A DNA stretch of 64,000 nucleotides from Bacteriovoracaceae bacterium (GCA_028101965.1 JAOHMI010000003.1:1-64000), one strand, 5' to 3'. Counted from the first letter of the stretch, positions 18,954-32,756 are shown. The notes: generated by a model from the letters alone, not told the origin. A program made the numbers and translations.

Positions 18954-19865
18954 GTGGAAAAAAAGTTTGGTATAAAAGTAATTTCGAACAGTTGTGGCAT
19001 TCTTCCACACACTCTTAGAGTCTGGGAACAGCGCTATCAGGTATTTCAGCCTGAACGAGCGCCGAATGGACAAAGGCTCTATTCAAAATCTGATTTAGAA
19101 AAAGCAAAGTTAATTGCTCGTCTTTTAGAACACGGTCATTCAATTTCATCGCTAGCGGGTTATTCAAATCCAGAGTTAGATACAATGATTGAATTAATAG
19201 AAAAAGATACAAAAAATACGAAAGATTCGCCATTCATCCACTCAATTAGTACTAAAAATTTATTGATGTATTTGTCGGATTATAAAATAGATTTAGTGGC
19301 GGCCGAACTTCAACATCTTAGGTTGAGTGTTGGATCAAAAGAATTTATTTTTAAAATCATCTTACCGATTATGCGTGAAATCGGTTTGCTGGTGGCTAAA
19401 GGAAAATACACTGTTAGCCAAGAGCATATCATTTCGACCATCGTAAGAGGTCAACTTTCTCAAATTTACCTTCCAAACGTTGGGCCAAAATCAAAAGAGA
19501 TGGTACTTGCGACACCTGAAGGTAATCTTCATGAGTTATCGATAATCATAGGAGATATCTTGTGTCGTTCAAATCGCCTCACAACTCGTTACTTAGGCGC
19601 AACTCATCCAGCTGATTGCTTAGGGCAAGCAGTTAATGCTCTCAAGAGCCCTTATTTAGTTCTAGGCGTAATTACTTCTGATCAGTGGAATTATCATGAT
19701 CATATTATTCCCTACCTTTCTAAAATTGATGCACAGTTAGATGAAAATATTACTGTTATTTTAGGTGGTGGAAGCCCTATGGACTTTCCTGAGTTTAAAC
19801 ATATTGAAGAGGTTATCATTTTCGATTCTTTAGAAAAGTTCGATAAATTTTTGGAGGATCTATAA
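18954..19865 (+). CDS. MerR-family regulator with B12-binding domain (CarH/LitR-like)
   Basis: Residues 1-75 are a MerR winged helix ([19 protein letters not shown]). A four-helix segment (about 100-170) and a cobalamin-binding Rossmann domain (about 180-300) follow, as in CarH/LitR photosensors. His193 in EGNLHELS is where the lower axial cobalt ligand sits, and Glu157-His158 match the conserved EH. The capping Trp of the W-x9-EH motif is Val147 here and the next residue is Ala148, so light sensing by the classic route is doubtful. The start is GTG 18954 after GGAG. It heads an operon and probably represses both divergent operons. Confidence 0.88.
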
Positions 19866-20641
19866 TGTTAACGACCTTCTTAAGTGTATTTATCTTTTTT
19901 AACCTATTCTATTTAGTTGCTCGGTATAAAGAAGATTTCAGCGTTATCGATATTGCTTGGGGCTTAAGTTTCTTTCTCATTATAATAACCTCGACTTTTT
20001 CTATTGGTTCAATTGAATCAACCCGAACCTTGGTACTTCTTTCTTTAGTGGGTCTTTGGGCAATACGTTTGAGTGGTTATATTCTTTTTCGCTCATTAAA
20101 AATCGGTAAAGAAGATTATCGATATGCTCAATGGAGAAAAGACTGGGGAGATAATGCGAATCTCATAGCATATTTTAAAGTCTTTATGTTGCAAGCAGTT
20201 CTTGCTCTCATAATTGGATCACCGCTAATAATTTTTCACTTTAATCAAAAAAGCTCAATTGGTTTTGGTACAACCTTAGACTTTATCGGTCTTGCGGTGT
20301 GGGGTCTTGGTTTTCTTTTTGAAACGATTGGTGATCATCAGAAAAATGAATTTAAAAAAGATATCAAAAATCAAGGTAAGACACTGCAAACTGGATTGTG
20401 GAAATATACTCGTCACCCGAACTATTTTGGAGAAGCACTTTTATGGTGGGGAATTTTCTTAATTATTTTAAACCAATCTCCCTGGTATTTTATCTTGTGG
20501 GGGCCTTTAGTGTTAACCATACTTTTACTAAAAGTCTCAGGTGTTTATTTATTAGAGCAAAAATATGAGGGGAATAAAGAATATGAAAACTATAAAAAAA
20601 GAACGAGTTCTTTTATTCCTTGGCTTCCAAAGGCGAACTAG
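19865..20641 (+). CDS. DUF1295 membrane protein (steroid 5-alpha-reductase-like)
   Basis: About six hydrophobic segments span the protein. The C-terminal half has [23 protein letters not shown], the conserved RHPNYFGE signature of DUF1295/isoprenylcysteine methyltransferase-like enzymes. Family members reduce double bonds or methylate; the role here is unknown. Its ATG overlaps the stop of the regulator gene (TAATG), so the two are translationally coupled. Confidence 0.88.
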
Positions 20642-20962
20642 ATGAATAAAACAATAAAAATAATATTTTTTACAATTCTTTTTTTCATTATGCTTGCCAC
20701 CACTTTCTGGGCCGGATTTCAACAAAATTTGCTGACTGACTTTGGGTGGACCACATCTCCCATGTGGTTTAAAGCTACTCTTGTGGACTTTTACCTCAAT
20801 CAGCTCATTCTTTTTCTATGGGTCTGGGTTCTTGAGGATAATTTTTTAATTAAACTTATTTGGTTCGTTCTTTTTATTTGTTTTGGCAGTATGGGAACGG
20901 CCCTTTATATCATTATTCGATTAGTTCAAAATAAACCTCTCTTAAAAAAGGAAAAAGTATGA
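20642..20962 (+). CDS. DUF1475-like small membrane protein
   Basis: The 106 residues hold three hydrophobic helices (IIFFTILFFIMLATTFWAG, LILFLWVWVLE, IWFVLFICFGSMGTALYIII). The pattern, including FKATLVDFY, fits DUF1475, a family that commonly accompanies DUF1295 and CFA-like genes. It starts immediately after the DUF1295 stop and overlaps the following methyltransferase by ATGA. No function can be assigned. Confidence 0.7.
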   Translation: MNKTIKIIFFTILFFIMLATTFWAGFQQNLLTDFGWTTSPMWFKATLVDFYLNQLILFLWVWVLEDNFLIKLIWFVLFICFGSMGTALYIIIRLVQNKPLLKKEKV

Positions 20963-21978
20963 TTGACTCGATGCTTGGGAAAGGAGTTATTCCTGATTTT
21001 TTTATTCGTGGTGGCATCAAATCATTGCTGAAACAAAGATTAAAAGATGAATATGGTATCAAGTCTAATGCTGAAACCCGTCGCAAAGAATTGATTCACG
21101 AATTAAAGCATTCCCCAATCGCCGTAGAAACGGATAAGGCTAATGATCAGCACTATATGGTTCCTCCAGAATTTTTTAAACTTGCACTAGGTGATCGATT
21201 AAAATATAGCTGTTGCCACTGGGATAAAGCTAAAAACTTAGATGAAGCGGAAGTTGAAATGCTCGAATTAACAGTCAGGCGAGCTCAAATTAATGATGGA
21301 GATAAAATTTTAGAATTAGGGCATGGTTGGGGAGCGATCACTTTATTCATGGCCGAAAAATTTCCCAATAGTGAAATCACAGCAGTTTCCAATTCAGCTG
21401 ACCAGGGTGAATTTATTCGGCAAAGAGCTAGGGAGAGAAACTTAAATAATATTAAAATTATTACCGCTGATGTCACTGGTTTTTCTATTGAAGAAAAGTT
21501 TGACCGTATAATTTCCATTGAAATGTTCGAGCATATGAGGAATTACCAAAAGCTCTTAGGTCGAATAAATTCTTGGTTAAATGATGAAGGAACTCTTTTT
21601 GTTCACATCTTTGCTCATCGAGAACTGACTTATAAATATGAAGTGGTGGATGAGAGTGATTGGATGAGTAAATATTTTTTCTCAGGTGGAATCATGCCAA
21701 GCGAACATCTTTTTTATTATTTCCAAGATGATCTAAATATTAAAGAGCACTGGAGAGTTAATGGAAATCATTATGCTAAAACTGCGAGAGCATGGCTTGA
21801 GAATATGGACACTAACCGAGATAAAATACTGAGAATTTTTGACCAACATTATCCGAATGGAGAATCTAAAAAATGGTTTAATTATTGGAGAATCTTTTTT
21901 ATGAGCTGTGAAGAGCTCTGGGCTTACAACCAAGGAGAAGAGTGGATTGTAAGTCACTACTTATTTGAAAAGAGGTAA
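20959..21978 (+). CDS. CFA-synthase-like SAM methyltransferase
   Basis: This 339-residue protein belongs to the cyclopropane/fatty-acid methyltransferase family. It has YMVPPEFFKLALG in the acyl-binding region, ILELGHGWGAITLFMA as the SAM motif, and IISIEMFEHMRNY in place of the E. coli active-site EmiEhVG. The C-terminus (WRIFFMSCEELWAY) matches the family ending. It is shorter than classic Cfa (about 380) and lacks part of the N-terminal lipid domain. Related enzymes methylate unsaturated phospholipid acyl chains. It overlaps its upstream neighbour by 4 bp. Confidence 0.88.
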   Translation: MIDSMLGKGVIPDFFIRGGIKSLLKQRLKDEYGIKSNAETRRKELIHELKHSPIAVETDKANDQHYMVPPEFFKLALGDRLKYSCCHWDKAKNLDEAEVEMLELTVRRAQINDGDKILELGHGWGAITLFMAEKFPNSEITAVSNSADQGEFIRQRARERNLNNIKIITADVTGFSIEEKFDRIISIEMFEHMRNYQKLLGRINSWLNDEGTLFVHIFAHRELTYKYEVVDESDWMSKYFFSGGIMPSEHLFYYFQDDLNIKEHWRVNGNHYAKTARAWLENMDTNRDKILRIFDQHYPNGESKKWFNYWRIFFMSCEELWAYNQGEEWIVSHYLFEKR

Positions 21979-21980
21979 GA

Positions 21981-23225
21981 ATGAAAAAGATGGCAATAAT
22001 TGGTACTGGAGTTGCGGGAATGAGCGCTGCTTATTTTCTCAAAGATAATTTCGATATTACTGTATTTGAAAAAAATGATTATATAGGTGGTCACACAAAT
22101 ACTGTTGAAGTTTTCGATGGGGAGCAGAATTGCCCCATGGACACTGGTTTTATGGTTTTTAATAATAAAACCTATCCTAATTTGGTTAAACTTTTTGAGA
22201 AGCTTAAGGTTCCAATTAAAAATACAGACATGAGCTTTAGTGTACGCAATGAGAGTCTTGATTTGGAATATAACGGCTCTAATCTAGATGGAATTTTTTC
22301 TCAAAGAAAAAATATTATTAATTTAAAGTTTATTAAGATGCTTGTGGATGTTTTAAAGTTTAATTCAGATGCACCTAATATGCTTAAAAATTCTGAAAAT
22401 CAAAACTTATCAATTATTGAATATGTAAAAAAGCTTGGATTAGGAAATTACTTTTTCGAAAATTTTTTAGTTCCCATGAGCTCCGCGGTTTGGTCAACCC
22501 CCATGGATAAAATGGCCCATTTTCCTGCAACATCTCTGGTACGCTTTTTTCATAATCATGGTTTTGTGGGAGTCAATACTCAATTGCAATGGAAAACCGT
22601 TGAGGGTGGTAGCCGTGAATATCGAAAACGGTTAATCGATTCTTTTAAGGGAAATATTCATCTTAATGCTCAAGTAGAGAGTATTTATCAAGATGGCAAT
22701 AAAGTTCGAATCAAGGTTAATGGAAATGAACATGAGTTTGATAAAGTGATCGTGGCCAGTCACGCAGATGAAACCCTGAAAATGCTGCAAAATCCTTCTG
22801 AGCTGCAATATCAAGTTTTATCAAAATTTTCTTATCAAAAAAATATTGCCACTGTTCATACTGATCAAAAAGTGATGCCGAATTTAAAAAAGAATTGGTC
22901 CTCTTGGAACTTTATGATGAGGGGGCAAAATGCTTATACTGTCTATTATATGAATAAGCTGCAGGGAGTTTCTGATAAAAGAGACTTTTTTGTTAATATT
23001 AATGGTGAAGAGTACGTTGACCCAAATCACATTATTCAGCAAATTACTTATCATCATCCAGTCTTTGATGTGGAAGCAGTTAAAGCGCAGCAAAAAATAG
23101 ATACTCTAAATCAGCATGAGCATCTCAATTTCTGTGGTAGCTATTATCGATATGGTTTCCATGAAGATGCCCTGCTTTCTAGTGTGAACCTTTGCAGTTC
23201 AATTCTTAAGAAGGATGTTTTGTGA
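21981..23225 (+). CDS. FAD-dependent oxidoreductase (amine-oxidase fold)
   Basis: The Rossmann dinucleotide motif IGTGVAGMSAAYFL begins at residue 6, followed by VFEKNDYIGGHTNT, the conserved FAD-binding pattern of the amine oxidase/phytoene desaturase superfamily. The C-terminus has NFCGSYYRYGFHEDALLS, the second FAD contact. The enzyme family is almost always next to DUF1365 and CFA-like genes. From that context it probably oxidises or desaturates a methylated acyl chain, but this is inference. Confidence 0.9.
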   Translation: MKKMAIIGTGVAGMSAAYFLKDNFDITVFEKNDYIGGHTNTVEVFDGEQNCPMDTGFMVFNNKTYPNLVKLFEKLKVPIKNTDMSFSVRNESLDLEYNGSNLDGIFSQRKNIINLKFIKMLVDVLKFNSDAPNMLKNSENQNLSIIEYVKKLGLGNYFFENFLVPMSSAVWSTPMDKMAHFPATSLVRFFHNHGFVGVNTQLQWKTVEGGSREYRKRLIDSFKGNIHLNAQVESIYQDGNKVRIKVNGNEHEFDKVIVASHADETLKMLQNPSELQYQVLSKFSYQKNIATVHTDQKVMPNLKKNWSSWNFMMRGQNAYTVYYMNKLQGVSDKRDFFVNINGEEYVDPNHIIQQITYHHPVFDVEAVKAQQKIDTLNQHEHLNFCGSYYRYGFHEDALLSSVNLCSSILKKDVL

Positions 23226-23989
23226 ATCCACTGGAGATCGTGCCATATCAAGTAACCCATGAAAGATTTGTTCCAAAAAGGTACAAGTTCACGCATAATT
23301 TTTTTTGGTTCAAAGTTCCATTGGATAACTTGAGCGCACTTTCCACCTGGTTGGTTGGATTTGGTAAGAAAAGAATTTATTCTTTCCTGGATCAAGACCA
23401 TTTAAAATTGGGAAAAGAAACGGCTCGCGAAAACTATATTGAATTTGCAAGACGAAATGGCTTAGAGAGTGAAATTAGTAAAGTGACTCTTTATACATCT
23501 CTTAGGTTTATGGGGTATGTGTTTAATCCTGTCAGCTTTGTGTTACTTGAAGATATTCAAGGTAAAGAACATGCAATTATTGAAATTGGAAATACTTTTA
23601 ATGAGCAAAAGCCCTATTTTGTACATAATAAATATTTCTCATCAAATGGGTTTGCTTATAAAACAAAAAAGTACTTTTATATCTCTCCTTTTATTCCTCA
23701 TGATTATCAGATGACCTTTGTGTTCAAAAAAATAGGCAATTCTGTGGGAATTAATATTATTGATCAAGGAGAAACAGAAACCGTCTTAAAAGTTAGTTTC
23801 TCTGGTAAGGAGAAATTGGCGACCACAAAAGAAATAATTAAGCAAACGTTAAGAGTTCCCTTTGTAACACTTAAAGCAATTATATTAATCCACTTTCATG
23901 CTTTTATCCTATGGGTAAAAGGAATTAAATATTTCAAAAAAAATGAAGAGAAACATCTTCAGCGAGGTACTTATTTATGGAAACTATAG
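23222..23989 (+). CDS. DUF1365 family protein
   Basis: The sequence shows the DUF1365 pattern: HERFVPKRYKFTHNFFWFKV at the N-terminus, LRFMGYVFNPVSFV in the middle (a near-invariant NPVSF motif) and a FVTLKAIILIHFHAFILWVKG hydrophobic end. It starts with GTG overlapping the upstream stop (GTGA). Family members travel with the FAD oxidoreductase and CFA synthase and are thought to act on acyl chains; biochemistry is lacking. Confidence 0.9.
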   Translation: MNPLEIVPYQVTHERFVPKRYKFTHNFFWFKVPLDNLSALSTWLVGFGKKRIYSFLDQDHLKLGKETARENYIEFARRNGLESEISKVTLYTSLRFMGYVFNPVSFVLLEDIQGKEHAIIEIGNTFNEQKPYFVHNKYFSSNGFAYKTKKYFYISPFIPHDYQMTFVFKKIGNSVGINIIDQGETETVLKVSFSGKEKLATTKEIIKQTLRVPFVTLKAIILIHFHAFILWVKGIKYFKKNEEKHLQRGTYLWKL

Positions 23990-25226
23990 ATAAACAATTG
24001 AGTGTAATTAGAAATTCTAGTCTTTATCAAAAACTAGCTTTAAGATTATTGAAAAACTTCTCAAAAGGATTAATAAAGGTCACTTTACCATCTGGGGAAA
24101 CTCTCGAGATAGGAAATGGAAACGGTCTGATCGTGGACCTGAATATTAAGAATGAATCTTTTTTAAAAAAGTAATTCTGTCAGGTGATATTGGCTTTGGC
24201 GAATCATATGTGAACGGGGATTGGGAAACAAATGATTTAACTTTGCTCCTAAGATGGACTATTCAAAATATTGAGAACTCCGGGATCATTTCTGGAACTA
24301 AAAATAAAAACTATTTTGTTAATTTCCTAAATCAGATTAATCGTTTAGGTCACCTGCTTAAAAGAAACACGAAGGAAGGCTCCAAAAATAATATTTCATA
24401 TCACTATGACTTAAGTAATAAATTTTATCAAATGATGCTTGATGAAACTATGAGTTATTCTTGCGGAATTTTTACTGATGGAAATGAAAGCCTCTATGAA
24501 TCACAGATAAATAAACTTAATGCTCTTTGTGATAACCTGGATATTCAATCAGGAGATCATATCCTTGAAATTGGTTGCGGTTGGGGTGGATTCGCCATTC
24601 ATGCAGTCACTAATTTTGATTGTAAAGTGACAGGAGTGACGATTTCAAAAGAACAATATAATTTCGCCAAAGAAAAGATAAGTAATCTAGGACTTTCAGA
24701 TAAAATTGAAATTTTACTTATGGATTATCGAGATATCCAAGGGCAGTTTGATAAAGTGGTTTCTATCGAAATGATTGAAGCGGTTGGACATGAGTTCCTT
24801 CCCCAATATTTTCAAACCATTGATCATTTATTGAAGCCCGATGGCGTTGCTGTCATCCAAGCTATAACTTCTCCCGATTCTCGGTATGAACTATTTCGTA
24901 AAGGCGTTGATTTTATCCAAAAACATATATTTCCAGGAACTCTATTGCCCTCAATGAGAGCAATGCATAAAGCTTGTGAGAAAACAGATTTACATTTAAT
25001 TAATTTACGAGATATCGGATTAAGCTATGCCAAAACCTTAAAAATTTGGCACGACAAAGTAGAAGAGCAAAAATCTGAAATACGCAAGTTAGGAATGGAT
25101 GATACTTTCTTTAATCAATGGAAATATTATTTATGCTATTGTGAAGCGGCTTTTGCAGAAAGAAATATTAGTGATGTCCAAATTACTTTTATTAAGCCAA
25201 ATAATACAAAATATAAGTACGAATAA
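23977..25226 (+). CDS. cfa: CFA synthase encoded in two frames (frameshift in the gene)
   Basis: Frame one gives 65 residues of the N-terminal lipid-binding domain (VTLPSGETLEIG) and stops at TAA 24172. The rest continues in the -1 frame, where SGDIGFGESYVNGDW, HYDLSNKFY, ILEIGCGWGGFAIHA and EMIEAVGHEF are strong cyclopropane-fatty-acyl-phospholipid synthase motifs. Joined at 24171 they make about 416 residues, normal for the family. The junction is A_AAA_AAG directly before the stop, a known -1 slippery sequence. A programmed shift, a homopolymer indel mutation or a sequencing error all remain possible. It overlaps DUF1365 by 13 bp as the last gene of the operon. Confidence 0.85.
24165..24174 (+). 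promoter_or_regulatory. dnaX-type -1 slippery heptamer and stop
   Basis: The in-frame codons are TTA AAA AAG TAA, so A_AAA_AAG at 24165-24171 is in the register used for -1 slippage in E. coli dnaX. A slip leads to GTA at 24171 and continues into the conserved CFA frame with no gap in the protein alignment. A run of six Ts lies immediately 5'. I could not find a convincing stimulatory hairpin just downstream. Confidence 0.5.
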
Positions 25227-26202: not shown

Positions 26203-28176
26203 ATGAGTTTTAGCTACGATAAAATTAAGAAGAAACAAGAGTCAGATGACAAATGGGCATCTTACTCCGATTTGTTTATGGTTCTTTCTTTTGTTTTTCT
26301 ACTTCTATACGTAGTTTCTTCTCTTCGTAGTGGTTCTATTGGGATTACAAAAATCATTGAGCAAAAAAAATCAAAAAAGGAAGTTCAAGAACTTCGCCAA
26401 CAAATAAAAGTGTATGAAACTCTTAAAGATGATTACATGGCCAAACAAGCATCAAAAAGTGAAGTGGATAACTATGAAGAACTGATGGATCGCTTAACTT
26501 TACTTGAAGATGAAAATCAAAAAGAAGCTAATAAGTTAAGAAATCAAGCAGAGGATAATAAAAAGAAAGCTGTTGCTTTAAATAAATACCAGCAGATGGT
26601 TAAAAGTATTATTAATACTAATATGCTTCAAAAATCACGTTTAGTTCATCGTAGTAAAGTGATTAAAAAGAAAAATGATACAATTGACGAAAACGTACGT
26701 CACATAGCTGAGCAAGATGAAACAATTCAGACACAAAGTGACGAAATTCAAAAACAAGTTAGAATTATTGCAGAAAATAGAGACGTCATTTCGCAAAATG
26801 AAAATAAAATTGAAGAACTCAATACTGCGATTGAAAAGAAGAACAAAAGTATAGCTGCTAATAAATCTGTTATTAATAAAATATCTACTCGCTTAGATAA
26901 AAATATAAAGAAGCTACAAAAAGAAAGAAGACAAAAGAAAATTTCAAAACGCTTGTATAATAAAAAACTTAAAGAATTACAGAAAAAATCTAAGAAATCC
27001 ATTGCTAAGTTAAAAAGAAAAAATAAAAAGTATCATCAACAAATCAAATCCACAGAAAATAACTTGGAAAAAGCCAACTCGATTATAGTCCAAGCTAATA
27101 ATGAAATAGTGGAACAAAAGCTTAAAAAAGCTGAACTCGAAAAAGACTTAGCCCAAACTCAAAGCAGTTTAATGGCGAAGCAAAGTGAACTAAATGATAC
27201 CCAGCAAAACCTGAATGAAACTCAGCAAAACCTTGATCAAACACAGCAAAAACTAGCTGATACGAATGAGGAGCTCATGAGTGCTTCAGAGAGACTTAAT
27301 CAAAAAATGCAAGAGCTTGAGAGTAAAAAACAGCAAATGCAAGAACAAGAGAACGAGTTTCAAGCTCAACTTGCACAACAAAAACAAGATAATCAAGACA
27401 AGCTAGATGCAGAAAAAGAAAAATTTGAAGATGATTTGAAAAAACAAAAAATAACAGCGAAAGCTAAAATTAAAAAGCTAGCTGAGTTTAATCGCAAAAT
27501 GAAAGATAAAGAATCTCAGTTTAAAGAAAAGCTTAAGAATAAAGAGAATCAATTTAAAAGAACATTGGCCAGTGTAGAGAAAGACTTAAAGAAAGCTCAA
27601 AATAAAGCCAATGCAAGGAAGCGTCTTTCACAAAAAATTGCTAAGAACTTACAAAAAGCCGGAATTAATGCAAATGTCGATGGCGGAACTGGTGATGTTT
27701 ATATCTCTTTTGAGAAAGATTACTTCGATAATGGAAGTGCCAATTTAAAAAATGGAATGGAAAAGGTATTGAAAAAATTTATGCCTTTGTATGCCGACAC
27801 TCTATTTAAAGATAAAGATATCGCGGATAAAATAGAGGGGATCGATATTATTGGATTTGCTTCTCCTACCTATCAGGGGAGGTATGTGGACCCACACAGC
27901 CTGGATCCTAAGGATCAACGTGCAGCGAACTATAATTTAGACCTTAGTTATAAACGAGCAAAATCGATCAAAGAATATATCTTTGATACAAGAAAGTTAG
28001 AATATAAAAATCAAAAAAAATTACTCTCTCTAGTTAATGTTACCGGGCGAGGCTTCTTCTCTGAAAATAGTAAAGATAAAGCTAAAGCGAAGGGAATGAG
28101 TCGAAATCAATTTTGTCGTGAGTTCGATTGTAAAAAAGCACAAAAGGTAATTATTAAGTTTGATCTAGGGGAGTAA
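26203..28176 (+). CDS. MotB-like stator protein with long periplasmic coiled coil and OmpA domain
   Basis: Residues 18-43 (WASYSDLFMVLSFVFLLLYV) match the single transmembrane helix of MotB/ZorB, with Asp23 at the position of the proton-carrying Asp. About 420 residues of Lys/Glu/Gln-rich heptad coiled coil follow (roughly 45-470), far longer than in MotB. An OmpA-type peptidoglycan-binding domain ends the protein (DVYISFEKDYFDNGSANL; NYNLDLSYKRAKSIKEY near 576-592). It is translated just before a MotA-like gene. It is not a canonical flagellar stator: no flagellar genes are near, and the coil could span or fold within the periplasm. Confidence 0.82.
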   Translation: MSFSYDKIKKKQESDDKWASYSDLFMVLSFVFLLLYVVSSLRSGSIGITKIIEQKKSKKEVQELRQQIKVYETLKDDYMAKQASKSEVDNYEELMDRLTLLEDENQKEANKLRNQAEDNKKKAVALNKYQQMVKSIINTNMLQKSRLVHRSKVIKKKNDTIDENVRHIAEQDETIQTQSDEIQKQVRIIAENRDVISQNENKIEELNTAIEKKNKSIAANKSVINKISTRLDKNIKKLQKERRQKKISKRLYNKKLKELQKKSKKSIAKLKRKNKKYHQQIKSTENNLEKANSIIVQANNEIVEQKLKKAELEKDLAQTQSSLMAKQSELNDTQQNLNETQQNLDQTQQKLADTNEELMSASERLNQKMQELESKKQQMQEQENEFQAQLAQQKQDNQDKLDAEKEKFEDDLKKQKITAKAKIKKLAEFNRKMKDKESQFKEKLKNKENQFKRTLASVEKDLKKAQNKANARKRLSQKIAKNLQKAGINANVDGGTGDVYISFEKDYFDNGSANLKNGMEKVLKKFMPLYADTLFKDKDIADKIEGIDIIGFASPTYQGRYVDPHSLDPKDQRAANYNLDLSYKRAKSIKEYIFDTRKLEYKNQKKLLSLVNVTGRGFFSENSKDKAKAKGMSRNQFCREFDCKKAQKVIIKFDLGE

Positions 28177-28190
28177 ACTAGGAAAGAATA

Positions 28191-29285
28191 ATGGAATTCG
28201 TAATTAAAAATTTTATTGAGGTTTTATCATCCGCAGCGGATTTTCTGTTTCCGATGATGGTCTTGGCTTTTATGGCCGGAGTGATTCTGCGGGTGTTAAT
28301 TCATTATACCGTGCAAAGACAAGATTGGTTCACCAGAAACTTTGAAAAAAGGACGCGTAAGTTTTTAGAGGAAAGATCATTTAAAAATTATGATTCTTTT
28401 TATATAACGACAAAAACATTACTAGAGAAGACTTATTACGAACTTTTTATATTTCGTGCTATAAATAAAAGAAGAAATCCTGATGTTATCCTGGATATGA
28501 GTGATCGTCTTTTTTTAATTCAGCATGGTACTGCGTTTTTCGTGGGTGAAACTCTAAGAAATATTAAATTTTGGAAGTATGGTGATAAAGATCCTCGATT
28601 TAAAGATTCCTCTATTAATATATTAAAAAATAATCCATGCTTTAATCGTGCAATTGGGGTCTTTCCAGTTGGTCCTTTTACAGATATTTTAAATTTATTA
28701 CCAGGCATCTTCTTAGTTGGAGGCATTTTTGGGACCTTCTTAGGAATAATGGCCGCTTTACCTGAACTGCAAGGAATGGACATGGCCGATATTGAATCCT
28801 CTCAAAAAGTAATGGGACGATTTTTAGATAGTATTTCATTTTCCATGAGTACTTCTATTATGGGGATTCTTCTTTCTGTAACCATGAACGTGATTAATAC
28901 CATTTTAAATCCAGAGAAATTATTTCTAAATATTGTAGAAAGATTGGAAGCAACTCTTGAGATTATTTGGGACTCTTGTGAGCACAATACCTTGCCCAAA
29001 AATATTGAAAACTTTGACGAAAATCGTGATTCTATTGATGTTTTAGCAGAAGAGGCAATTAAAAAAGAAATGAGTGAACAAAAAAAACGTTTAAGCTGGG
29101 GATCAGGCAACCCAGATGAGAAGACTGAAAAAGTTATTGAAGAGGTAAAAGCTGGATTGTCTATGAATACAGAAAATCCAGATAATGAAGGTCCAGAAGA
29201 AGCTGTTCACGCCTCAGGGCAAGAGAGTTTACCTGGTATGTCTGAAGACGACACTTCTGATGAAGAAAATAAAAAAGCTTCTTAA
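28191..29285 (+). CDS. MotA/TolQ/ZorA-like proton-channel subunit
   Basis: Three transmembrane segments are visible: about 17-38, 166-190 (LPGIFLVGGIFGTFLGIMAAL) and 212-238 (LDSISFSMSTSIMGILLSVT). The G-x-GTFLGI and SMSTSIMGI stretches are the channel-lining signatures shared by MotA, TolQ/ExbB and ZorA. A cytoplasmic domain lies between helices 1 and 2, and an acidic, disordered-looking tail of about 90 residues ends the protein. It starts 14 bp after the MotB-like gene, so the pair should form an ion-driven stator complex. Confidence 0.82.
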   Translation: MEFVIKNFIEVLSSAADFLFPMMVLAFMAGVILRVLIHYTVQRQDWFTRNFEKRTRKFLEERSFKNYDSFYITTKTLLEKTYYELFIFRAINKRRNPDVILDMSDRLFLIQHGTAFFVGETLRNIKFWKYGDKDPRFKDSSINILKNNPCFNRAIGVFPVGPFTDILNLLPGIFLVGGIFGTFLGIMAALPELQGMDMADIESSQKVMGRFLDSISFSMSTSIMGILLSVTMNVINTILNPEKLFLNIVERLEATLEIIWDSCEHNTLPKNIENFDENRDSIDVLAEEAIKKEMSEQKKRLSWGSGNPDEKTEKVIEEVKAGLSMNTENPDNEGPEEAVHASGQESLPGMSEDDTSDEENKKAS

Positions 29286-29477
29286 TATCAACTATTAGAC
29301 TAATGCCTGTTAAGGGATTGAGTTTATTTACCTAAATTGTTTTCCATACTAGAAAACTCAGTTACAAATACTATAATTTTTCAATATTTAGCCGATTAGT
29401 ATAATGCCCGCTAGAAGTGGGTGTATTTAATTTTTAATTAGGTACTAGATTATTTTGAAAAATGGAGTTTTCGATTA

Positions 29478-32400
29478 ATGGATAATGGTAAATCCATCAT
29501 TCTACTGATCTATCAGTTTGGGGTTAAGACAGAAATTGATTTGTCTCATAATCCTTTTTTGGTTGGGCGTAAAGGAGCAAAAGTTGATTTTGATATTGAC
29601 TGTGATTCTTTGAGCCGAAAACATGTACATCTCTATTATGAAGATCATCAAGTTAAAGTTAAAGATTTAGGTACTACAAATGGTACTTATATTAATGCTA
29701 ATAAAATAAAGGCACATAAAAAGTATCCATTGTCTCTGTCGGATGAATTAAGGTTAGGGAAAAAAGATATTTTTATTAGTTATCGAATCAAGGAATCTAG
29801 CAAATCGCCTCCGGCCACACCTATTTCCCTTTTAAATCAAGATCAAACTGCAATAACAGATAATCCTCTAATTCAAACATCACAGTTTAAATTAGAGGAG
29901 CTTGGCTTTAAAGAGAAAGAAACAGATCTATTATCTCCTCAAAACCCAGGATTATTCGTTGTTGATAAAGATAACTTAACAAGTACTTCAATCGAAATCA
30001 TGAATAATTTGAATAAAGATAATAATTTTGTTGAAGAGTATGAAAATGAATTAAAAAATTTATATGAGAAAAAATACAAAGCTAAAGAAGAGAAGTTAAA
30101 ACTTCTCTTGCAAAAAGAAATTGAAGAAGAAGAAATTGTTGCAAAAGAGCGTGCTTTAAAACTTAATATGCAATCAAAAATACAAGCAGATAAAATTCTC
30201 AAACAAGCCCATTCGAAAATTGCTGAAGAAAAGAATCAGCATGAAGAAGGTTTATCGAAAATAAAGAAAAAGCATGCGGTTTTGTCTGACTCATTCGTTG
30301 ATCTTTCAGCAGAATTAAAGAAGCTTACAAAAAATCGAGATTCAATCGAAGCCTTAATTTATGAATTACAACGAGATGAGTCAACTCTTAAAAATAAAAT
30401 CTATGATCTTACTGATAAAAAAGAAAAAATGGAGCAAGAAAAAAGTGAGCTTAAAAAAGATGTCGATTCAATTTATGAGAAAAAATTAATCGCGGCAAGA
30501 GAACTAGAAGAGACAAAGCTTGAGCGAAACTCAATTAAAATAGAATTAGAAAACTCATATCGTGAACTTGAGAATGAGAGAGGGAAGTTTGAAAAAACAA
30601 AAATTGAAGTTGAGGAAAAAGAAGCAGAATTAAAGGAAAAGGAAGAAAAGCAATACGAACGTAAAATGGAACTTATCAATGAAGGGGAGAGAAAAAGAGA
30701 CGAGCTAATTAAATCTGGCGAGGAGTTTGAGAACGAAGTTAAAAGAAAAGCACAAGAGCAGGCTGAAAAAATTACACTTGAAGCAAATGAAAGAAGCGAA
30801 GATATTGTTAATAAAATGAGGGAAGAGTCACAGAATATTTTGGAGAAATCTCGGCAAGAAGCTGCTTCGCTAACTGAAAAAGTTAAAAAAGAGAGTGAAA
30901 AACTTATTAATGATACTAAGCTGAGTTGTGAAATTCGCGAGAAGAACAGTTTAGAGCAAGCAGAAAGAACCATAGAAGCTTCTAAAGCTGAAGCGAATAA
31001 CTATTACGAAAATCGAGTTTCTAAAGCAGATGAATACTATTCTCAGAAGAAGAATAGCTCTGAAGAGTATTTTCAAAAGAAGACGAATGAAGCCGATAGT
31101 TACCATCGAGACAAAACCTCAAAAGCTGATAAATACGAAGCTGAGAAACAAGCGATCGGAGATCAATACGAAAAAAAGAAAAAAGAGAAAGCAGATCAAT
31201 ATGAAACTCGTGTAATAGAAAAAGCGAACCAATATGAAAAAAATAAAAAGAATGAAGCTGATAGTCTCTTTTCGAGCACCAAAGAGAAAGCTGATACATA
31301 CCATAAAAATAAACTAGAAGAAGCCGATAAAAAATTTAACTTGAGCATGGATGAGTTGAAGAATAAATCAGAAGAAATTGTAAATAAAAGTAAAAGTACT
31401 GGGGAGAATATTGTAGCTCAAGCAACCAAAGAAGCTCAGAGAATGCTTGGAAAGGTAAATCAACAAATTAAAGATGAAAAAAAATCATTGGAAGAGGATT
31501 TATTTATTCTTCGAGAACAGGAATCTAGCCTAAGTAAAGAAGTGGAAAGTGGAAGAAAGCATCTCAAGATGAAATTAGAAGAAGCTGACGATTTAGCCCA
31601 GTCAATTAAAATGGAAGCAACAGAGAAAGCGGCGACAATTATAGCAGATGCTCAGATCGAAGAGAAATTAGCTAAAGATAAAGTTCAAGACCTACAAAAA
31701 GTTATTGAAGAGGCCAGACAAGAAGCAGAAGCAGAAAGAAACGAAATGATCGAAGTGGCGAAAAAACAAGCTGATAAGATGATACTTAAAGCTGAAACAG
31801 ATATTAAAAAATCCGTTCATGAATCTAAATCAGTCATTAAGAAAATTGAAGAAGAGGTTGAAAAAAGAAAAGTAAATCTACAAATTGGGTATAAAGAGAG
31901 TCAAAACAGGTTAAAAGAAAGGTTGAAGCTAGAAGAACAAAAGTTGAGGAAGGACTATCGAAAGGTAATAACAGAAAATTTAAAATCACTTTTTTCGAGT
32001 TACTTGACTGAGAATAAGTCCCAACTAGGTAATTTATCCGCTTTTAGAAAAAAAGAACAAGTGCTTAAAGATGTTGAGCATTTGATTACAGAGTCACTCG
32101 ATGGAAATACAAATGAAGCAATGAATACTGGCGTCATGAAGCATTTAGCCTTGAAAAAGGAAACCCTGGATAAAGAAAAGCAATTTTATAAAAAAATTGG
32201 CCTTGGTGTCGGCGTAGCAGCAGCCCTTAGTTTAATCATATACTTTATTGGTCAATGGAATATATCGGAAGATTTGGCTAATCGGAAAACGGCCAGTGAT
32301 AGCTATTTGGACACTCTCGAAAAGGAAAGAAGCCAAAAGAAATATTATGAACCGAAGCAAGATAAAGAGTATAAAGAAACTTTTTATGAAAATTATCTTT

Positions 32401-32756
32401 ACACAAAGAGTTTCCCCGAGTTTTTTAGGGGGGAGTTTTTCCAAGACTCTTGGATCATTGATCTTAGTTCATTCTTATTGGATGACTTAGAATTAGATGA
32501 AAACAGTATTGTTCGTTATATGAGTGAAGAAGCGAAGTTATTTAGTGACTTTTCCGAACTGTATAAAAAAATTGAGGCGGATAAACCAAAACAGGGAATA
32601 GAGGCTCTTCGTTTGCGTGAAAACTCCTTTAATCAAAAAGTTACTAAAATATTTGATGGTTCATACAACTTCTCGCGCTATTTGAAATTTCGTAAAAAGT
32701 TTTATCAGGAAAAAGTTAGAGAGTGGAAATTTCACAATAGGAAAAGAGAAAAATAA
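29478..32756 (+). CDS. FHA-domain, giant coiled-coil, tail-anchored membrane protein
   Basis: Residues about 8-103 are a forkhead-associated domain with all phosphothreonine-pocket residues (Gly30-Arg31, Ser46-Arg47-Lys48-His49, Asn68-Gly69-Thr70). Around 170-865 is nearly unbroken Glu/Lys/Ala coiled coil, much of it in 11-residue periods. A single transmembrane helix lies near 906-927 (GVGVAAALSLIIYFIG), with about 165 residues beyond it, presumably periplasmic. There is no N-terminal signal, so the FHA head should be cytoplasmic. It follows the MotA-like gene on the same strand after 192 bp and probably belongs to the same machine. Confidence 0.82.
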   Translation: MDNGKSIILLIYQFGVKTEIDLSHNPFLVGRKGAKVDFDIDCDSLSRKHVHLYYEDHQVKVKDLGTTNGTYINANKIKAHKKYPLSLSDELRLGKKDIFISYRIKESSKSPPATPISLLNQDQTAITDNPLIQTSQFKLEELGFKEKETDLLSPQNPGLFVVDKDNLTSTSIEIMNNLNKDNNFVEEYENELKNLYEKKYKAKEEKLKLLLQKEIEEEEIVAKERALKLNMQSKIQADKILKQAHSKIAEEKNQHEEGLSKIKKKHAVLSDSFVDLSAELKKLTKNRDSIEALIYELQRDESTLKNKIYDLTDKKEKMEQEKSELKKDVDSIYEKKLIAARELEETKLERNSIKIELENSYRELENERGKFEKTKIEVEEKEAELKEKEEKQYERKMELINEGERKRDELIKSGEEFENEVKRKAQEQAEKITLEANERSEDIVNKMREESQNILEKSRQEAASLTEKVKKESEKLINDTKLSCEIREKNSLEQAERTIEASKAEANNYYENRVSKADEYYSQKKNSSEEYFQKKTNEADSYHRDKTSKADKYEAEKQAIGDQYEKKKKEKADQYETRVIEKANQYEKNKKNEADSLFSSTKEKADTYHKNKLEEADKKFNLSMDELKNKSEEIVNKSKSTGENIVAQATKEAQRMLGKVNQQIKDEKKSLEEDLFILREQESSLSKEVESGRKHLKMKLEEADDLAQSIKMEATEKAATIIADAQIEEKLAKDKVQDLQKVIEEARQEAEAERNEMIEVAKKQADKMILKAETDIKKSVHESKSVIKKIEEEVEKRKVNLQIGYKESQNRLKERLKLEEQKLRKDYRKVITENLKSLFSSYLTENKSQLGNLSAFRKKEQVLKDVEHLITESLDGNTNEAMNTGVMKHLALKKETLDKEKQFYKKIGLGVGVAAALSLIIYFIGQWNISEDLANRKTASDSYLDTLEKERSQKKYYEPKQDKEYKETFYENYLYTKSFPEFFRGEFFQDSWIIDLSSFLLDDLELDENSIVRYMSEEAKLFSDFSELYKKIEADKPKQGIEALRLRENSFNQKVTKIFDGSYNFSRYLKFRKKFYQEKVREWKFHNRKREK
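31026..31355 (+). repeat. Ten tandem 11-residue (hendecad) repeats in the FHA protein
   Basis: Residues 517-626 divide without gaps into ten 11-residue units such as ADSYHRDKTSK, ADQYETRVIEK, ANQYEKNKKNE and ADTYHKNKLEE, with Ala-Asp at positions 1-2 and an aromatic at 4. A further unit (ANNYYENRVSK) lies immediately before. Hendecads favour right-handed or straight coiled coils. The DNA copies are diverged (33-bp period), so this is not a recent expansion. Confidence 0.8.

Follow-up and report, generated by a model that had tools for sequence, protein, structure and literature searches.

Ion-driven motors of the 5:2 class are known to power flagella, the Ton/Tol systems, type 9 secretion and gliding, Agl gliding and Zorya defence. 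In ZorAB and MotAB, Ser/Thr residues of the A subunit lie around the Asp of the B subunit and form a polar ring, and ZorA bears a long C-terminal cytoplasmic tail (PMC11890865). GltG consists of FHA, transmembrane (TM) and TonB-like parts, shows a two-hybrid interaction with AglR and has been proposed to act as a transducer of motor work; Bdellovibrio glides and has Agl/Glt loci (PMC3169522). In this study we describe a trio of genes for a MotB-like, a MotA-like and an FHA protein that is real and conserved, and of which we found no description in the literature searched.

Three genes and their products

The trio lies in the window, by which we mean the whole 64,000-nt stretch of DNA analysed, which is part of a draft genome that is ~67% complete. 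Three ORFs follow each other on the + strand at 26203-28176, 28191-29285 and 29478-32756, with intergenic gaps of 14 and 192 bp. On reading the window we found their neighbours to be chiefly genes of lipid and amino-acid metabolism, and saw no flagellar, Tol or Zorya genes adjoining the trio.

The first ORF (26203..28176, +) encodes a MotB/ZorB-like subunit of 657 aa with one TM helix, a long coiled arm and an OmpA-like C-terminal domain. Near the start of the helix stands Asp23 (motif WASYSDLF; codon 26269..26271, +), the predicted ion-carrying residue, which is invariant in all 63 homologues of the set to which the window belongs (type A, see below). The protein stays below threshold in Pfam (MotB_plug, E 0.03). 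Its C-domain (residues 490-657; 27670..28173, +), delimited by PADLOC, a PDB profile, conservation and the structural model, matches ZorB models (E 2e-27, PADLOC) and also the PDB chain 8vvi_A, and contains invariant N578, L581, S582, R585 and Cys638/Cys643. Between TM helix and OmpA-like domain runs a long helical arm of ~440 aa (residues 45-485; 26335..27657, +), which is predicted to be periplasmic because of its position after the TM helix. The AF2 monomer comprises the TM helix, the OmpA-like domain and, between them, two long helices that span 85-243 and 249-414. At position 248 lies a conserved Ser/Thr-Lys turn; between residue 130 and this turn the homologues show 14 different lengths, of which 11, covering 59 of the 63 proteins, differ by whole heptads; this favours an uninterrupted coiled coil in that stretch. 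A hairpin shape of the arm was suggested by the AF2 monomer and Foldseek. The lengths of its two halves do not covary (r 0.21), and a simple hairpin is therefore unsupported. Profile and fold searches also relate the arm to the long helical hairpins of the periplasmic coiled coils EnvC and RipA, but it has no hydrolase-activator or hydrolase domain, and the likeness seems to be a weakly specific one of coiled coils.

The second ORF (28191..29285, +) encodes a MotA/ZorA-like channel subunit of 364 aa with three TM helices and a short tail, recognised by its ORF, Pfam, PADLOC and a PDB profile. ZorA models are its best matches in both PADLOC (E 1.8e-8) and NCBIfam, yet far below the cut-off; the match to PF01618 is sub-threshold (E 0.0097, Pfam), and the TolQ model gives E 0.3. 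When a profile of the close MotA family was searched against the PDB, the chains above chance were of ZorA type only. The type-A MotAs are 290-436 aa long (median 327), with TM3 near residue 221. Two residues are invariant in all 81 of them and are predicted to belong to a polar ring: Thr182 in the GTF motif of TM2 (codon 28734..28736, +) and Ser222 in TM3 (codon 28854..28856, +). Judged by its sequence matches, the MotA/MotB-like pair is nearest to the ZorA/ZorB branch of the 5:2 ion motors.

The third ORF (29478..32756, +) encodes a protein of 1092 aa composed of an FHA domain, a coiled coil, one TM helix and a C-terminal domain. The FHA domain (residues 28-94; 29559..29759, +) is significant in Pfam (PF00498, E 1.6e-13; 51.3 bits vs a gathering score of 20.7) and has the canonical residues G30/R31, S46, H49 and N68/G69. 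The positions that bind phospho-threonine are kept in most homologues (R31 in 62, S46 in 66, H49 in 66, N68 in 59 and G69 in 69 of 74), and one subclade (L036, L268) has, by eye, a degenerate FHA domain. The single TM helix (residues 907-925; 32196..32252, +) was recognised by hydropathy and is a helix in the model. In homologues, which range from 465 to 1440 aa (median 1011), it lies ~165 residues before the end, and a conserved domain takes up this remaining length (32253..32753, + in the window). The model of this domain is all-helical and of high confidence (mean pLDDT 89.5). A PDB fold search with it gave no match (best E 3.7), and the sole significant PDB match by sequence was a designed membrane protein, over the TM-proximal part. 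With a cytoplasmic N-terminal FHA domain, the C-terminal domain would be periplasmic.

Our results confirm what the earlier note had observed: three consecutive same-strand genes without flagellar, Tol or Zorya partners in view, a MotB-type helix with Asp23 and an OmpA domain, a three-helix channel protein of MotA/TolQ/ZorA type, and a 1092-residue FHA protein with a membrane anchor. The domain beyond the anchor was missing from its description, and the predicted periplasmic arm of MotB is a further addition.

At three other loci (L034:9231-14636, L067 and L142) the FHA protein is divided over at least two genes, such that one ORF has the FHA domain and another the TM/C-terminal domain; this might be a real split or a sequencing frameshift. 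A search of 12 genomes, some with and some without the trio, found Ser/Thr-type kinase domains in every one. The genome of the window gave a single kinase match, a small kinase-like protein, whose gene is directly followed by that of a PP2C-like phosphatase, the latter recognised by eye (L146, G000:C127, ~1437-2938). Bd0474 is an FHA protein needed for prey killing (PMC6561027, PMC12034629). We considered it as an ortholog of the FHA protein and rejected it, as it has two FHA domains plus TPR repeats and lies in a tadC operon.

Conservation within the Bdellovibrionota

Relatives of the MotA-like protein form two sets, type A and type B. The loci of type A, the set of the window, were collected by an alignment query of genome contigs; they have the order MotB-MotA-FHA, with 39-53% identity across 80 named loci. 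MotB stands directly 5' of MotA in 79 of 81 loci, and in 75 the gene directly 3' of MotA encodes the FHA domain, the FHA protein's C-terminal domain, or both. Because it recurs in 75 of 81 loci, the arrangement is not due to chance. Among the remaining six, some stop at a contig edge and some are without an FHA gene. A conserved fourth partner was dropped as a candidate: around the type-A loci none recurs, and no neighbour family is common to more than 6 of them.

The same association appears at the level of genomes. In a sample of 369 Bdellovibrionota genomes, which are related to one another and so not independent, motor and C-terminal domain occur together in 128, the motor only in 15, the domain only in 5 and neither in 221, when motor presence is read from the match table with fragments counted by score. 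The domain is thereby found in 128 of 143 genomes with the motor vs 5 of 226 without it. The FHA protein is a true partner of the MotA/MotB-like motor; its co-occurrence with the MotA/B genes in relatives, on which the earlier note had made its proposal depend, is borne out. Genomes that have the motor without an FHA gene (G010, G229-G233, G341, G342, G355, G360) belong mostly to divergent lineages, in which the motor can therefore work otherwise. Conversely, the FHA/C-terminal-domain protein occurs without a motor in G018, G266 and G267. As a separate observation, proteins with FHA domain, TM helix and C-terminal domain lie away from any type-A motor at L272 (G018), L273 (G266), L274 (G267) and L276 (G028).

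In the Bdellovibrio genus g71, which takes in B. bacteriovorus kdesi (L119 = G161), the type-A motor is present in 20 of 24 genomes, and in nearly all of 13 Bdellovibrio loci examined the trio stands between the same flanking genes. One Bdellovibrio genome (G173) has retained the FHA gene although motor and FHA gene are ~0.9 Mb apart. Has the trio been inherited vertically, then? The trees of MotA and RpoB show supported conflicts between families, and some genomes have two type-A copies (L078 and L079), which together indicate transfer or old paralogy inside the phylum. In view of the disagreement between the trees the trio cannot be regarded as a plain, vertically inherited core function of the whole phylum; strict vertical inheritance is unsupported at the family level.

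In type B the MotA protein has ~300 aa and, when both sets are aligned together, shares 21-25% identity with the MotA of the window. In 15 of the inspected loci MotB and MotA adjoin a third gene, whose products form one cluster of 146-168 aa; the two that were scanned are both cyclic-nucleotide-binding (PF00027). In this set the FHA protein appears to be replaced by a cyclic-nucleotide-binding protein. Operons of MotB, MotA and a cyclic-nucleotide-binding protein of ~155 aa are seen at L043-L053 and L059-L063 (e.g. L044:6312-9658), and the MotB proteins of type B reach 1758 aa (L060).

The MotA-like protein of the window ends in a Lys-Ala-Ser tag (29274..29282, +). An [AV][ASG] end, mostly Lys-Ala-Ser/Ala, is found in 72 of 80 MotAs of type A; among the other genes at these loci the figure is 28 of 579, and among other MotA/ExbB-family proteins 3 of 33. 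An A[SA] end occurs in none of 72 MotB and none of 63 FHA proteins. Of 15 third-gene proteins of type B, 11 have Ala-Ala or Ala-Ser at their C-terminus. Since the tag codons and stop codons of MotA vary, selection acts on the residues. Small-residue ends of this type are similar to known ClpXP degrons, and we hypothesize that the conserved tag, which MotA shares with the nucleotide-binding protein of type B, might be a degron.

Comparison with gliding, defence and flagellar motors

With the AglRQS-GltG core the trio shares an ion motor joined to a partner that has an FHA domain, a TM helix and a periplasmic domain. The NCBIfam GltG model matches the FHA protein of B. bacteriovorus kdesi with E 1.8e-9. 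However, this match is confined to the N-terminal FHA region (the first 187 residues; 36.7 vs 650 bits), and GltG ends in a TonB-like part whereas the trio's protein ends in an all-helical domain without PDB match. AglR, AglQ and AglS are of TolQ/TolR type, unlike the trio's motor, which is ZorA-type in the PDB search; the trio's FHA protein has a long coiled coil between FHA domain and TM helix, and other Glt proteins are absent from the unit. As motor lineage, coiled coil and periplasmic domain differ, the trio might work like the AglRQS-GltG core, yet it is no member of it. Could it nevertheless be a true surface-gliding motor, so that the Bdellovibrionota would have two machines of the AglRQS/Glt type? 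The common logic with AglR-GltG, the match of the GltG model to the FHA region and the gliding of Bdellovibrio itself speak for it (PMC3169522). We consider this unlikely, however. The type-A motor is not TolQR/AglR-like: in the Bdellovibrio genome G154, where the trio is present near 1,107,724-1,112,616 of the single contig, PF01618 finds 9 other family members and excludes the type-A protein. Moreover, the conserved unit contains no further partner, and Agl/Glt loci are already present in Bdellovibrio (PMC3169522).

Zorya is nearest by sequence for both motor subunits, and the trio keeps its Asp in the B-subunit TM helix (63/63), the Thr/Ser residues of the A subunit (81/81) and an OmpA-like, peptidoglycan-type domain. 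Compared with Zorya, however, the scores lie far below curated cut-offs: the best ZorA score is 31 bits in the window and 42 bits in B. bacteriovorus kdesi vs a cut-off of 100 (NF033915). The long ZorA-type tail is absent from type-A MotAs, and the B subunit has its long helical arm. In place of effector genes there is a protein of FHA domain, coil, TM helix and helical domain; no ZorC/ZorD, ZorE or type III effector genes adjoin MotB and MotA in type-A loci, where the third gene is the FHA gene. Because effectors and tail are absent and the scores fall short, the trio is not a Zorya system. The earlier note had also suggested that the FHA coiled coil takes the role of the ZorA tail. We found no support for this idea. 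The domain order runs from FHA domain over the coil and one TM helix to an extracytoplasmic domain and looks more like a regulator or transducer such as GltG than a pentameric tail.

On another reading the trio would serve a Zorya-like anti-phage defence, in which the motor would sense envelope perturbation and signal through an FHA protein that replaces the effectors. Apart from the closeness to ZorA/ZorB, a patchy distribution, the conflict of MotA and RpoB trees and the double copies (L078, L079) would be in keeping with such a role. The low scores, the lack of the tail and the lack of any effector-like gene in the conserved unit argue against it, as do the same syntenic locus across Bdellovibrio species and the retention in 20 of 24 genomes. 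Carriage on plasmids or viruses was set aside, as the trio was not found in plasmid and viral sequence collections. All in all we hold this reading to be improbable, and defence, one of the functions the earlier note had listed, finds weak support at best.

We likewise give little chance to the idea that the FHA protein merely positions the motor as a scaffold at the pole or division site, with phosphorylation setting its location rather than its running. The long coiled coil has a weak DivIVA/Wag31-like similarity, as in polar scaffolds, but coiled-coil similarity of this kind is not specific, and a conserved domain on the far side of the TM helix points to a function that spans the membrane.

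The flagellar stators MotAB and PomAB have in common with the trio the A/B ion-motor logic, the Asp helix and the OmpA-like domain; they differ from it by an A subunit with four instead of three TM helices, the trio's PF01618 match is sub-threshold, and the trio is distributed independently of flagella (FlhA in 319 of 369 genomes vs the type-A motor in ~143). That the pair might, in spite of its MotB-type helix and OmpA-like domain, be the organism's ordinary flagellar stator next to an unrelated FHA gene, as the earlier note had allowed, has next to no probability and is already refuted by distribution, as the motor is absent from the complete flagellated genomes G041 and G002 (FlhA present), other MotA-family genes exist separately (5-18 PF01618 matches in each of eight motor-bearing genomes, with the type-A protein mostly outside or near the cut-off) and the FHA gene is conserved together with the motor.

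A phosphorylation-controlled envelope motor as candidate

The reading we favour, and regard as moderately probable, is that of a three-gene, peptidoglycan-anchored envelope ion motor whose activity or output is under Ser/Thr phosphorylation control. Five MotA-like and two MotB-like subunits would form a 5:2 channel of the ZorAB class. Ion flow past Asp23 in MotB and Thr182/Ser222 in MotA might turn or strain this channel, which the OmpA-like domain would tether to peptidoglycan via the long helical arm. The FHA protein would sit in the same membrane, with the phospho-threonine reader and the coiled coil in the cytoplasm and the new helical domain in the periplasm. Once a phosphorylated partner is bound, it might engage the motor and pass work or a signal across the membrane; this coupling is modelled on the role proposed for GltG with AglRQS. 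Of the earlier note's proposal, the undescribed ion-driven machine with an FHA partner stands as a candidate, but not the FHA coil as substitute for the ZorA tail. Several observations count against our explanation: the subclade with a degenerate FHA domain, the lineages with the motor only, the genomes with the FHA protein only, the conflict between the trees and the occurrence of kinases without the trio.

If the explanation is true, the trio adds a 5:2 motor whose partner reads Ser/Thr phosphorylation, with a paralogue that has a nucleotide-binding partner. The trio also indicates that motors of ZorAB type are not confined to recognised defence systems, a point that matters for the origin of Zorya. 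The output of the motor may be gliding, outer-membrane or peptidoglycan work, or prey invasion. As the trio is present in most Bdellovibrio genomes, a function in motility, at the envelope or in the entry into prey can be tested there. More speculatively, and with considerable doubt, we propose that the two sets belong to a new Bdellovibrionota class of ZorAB-lineage envelope motors with interchangeable FHA or cyclic-nucleotide-binding control modules, a common degron-like C-terminal tag through which both channel subunit and nucleotide-binding regulator are turned over, and use in the predatory cycle.

Two further observations were made beside the trio. At L271 (G325) we noted a protein of 819 aa in which a long N-terminal extension precedes a ZorA-like channel region that lies in the C-terminal half. 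Upstream of the trio, at 18954-25226 of the window, a MerR-type regulator is followed by two cyclopropane-fatty-acid-synthase-like (CFA) genes, an FAD oxidoreductase and other membrane-lipid genes; by eye, and with one CFA gene profile-tested, this looks like a stress- or light-responsive cluster for fatty-acid modification.
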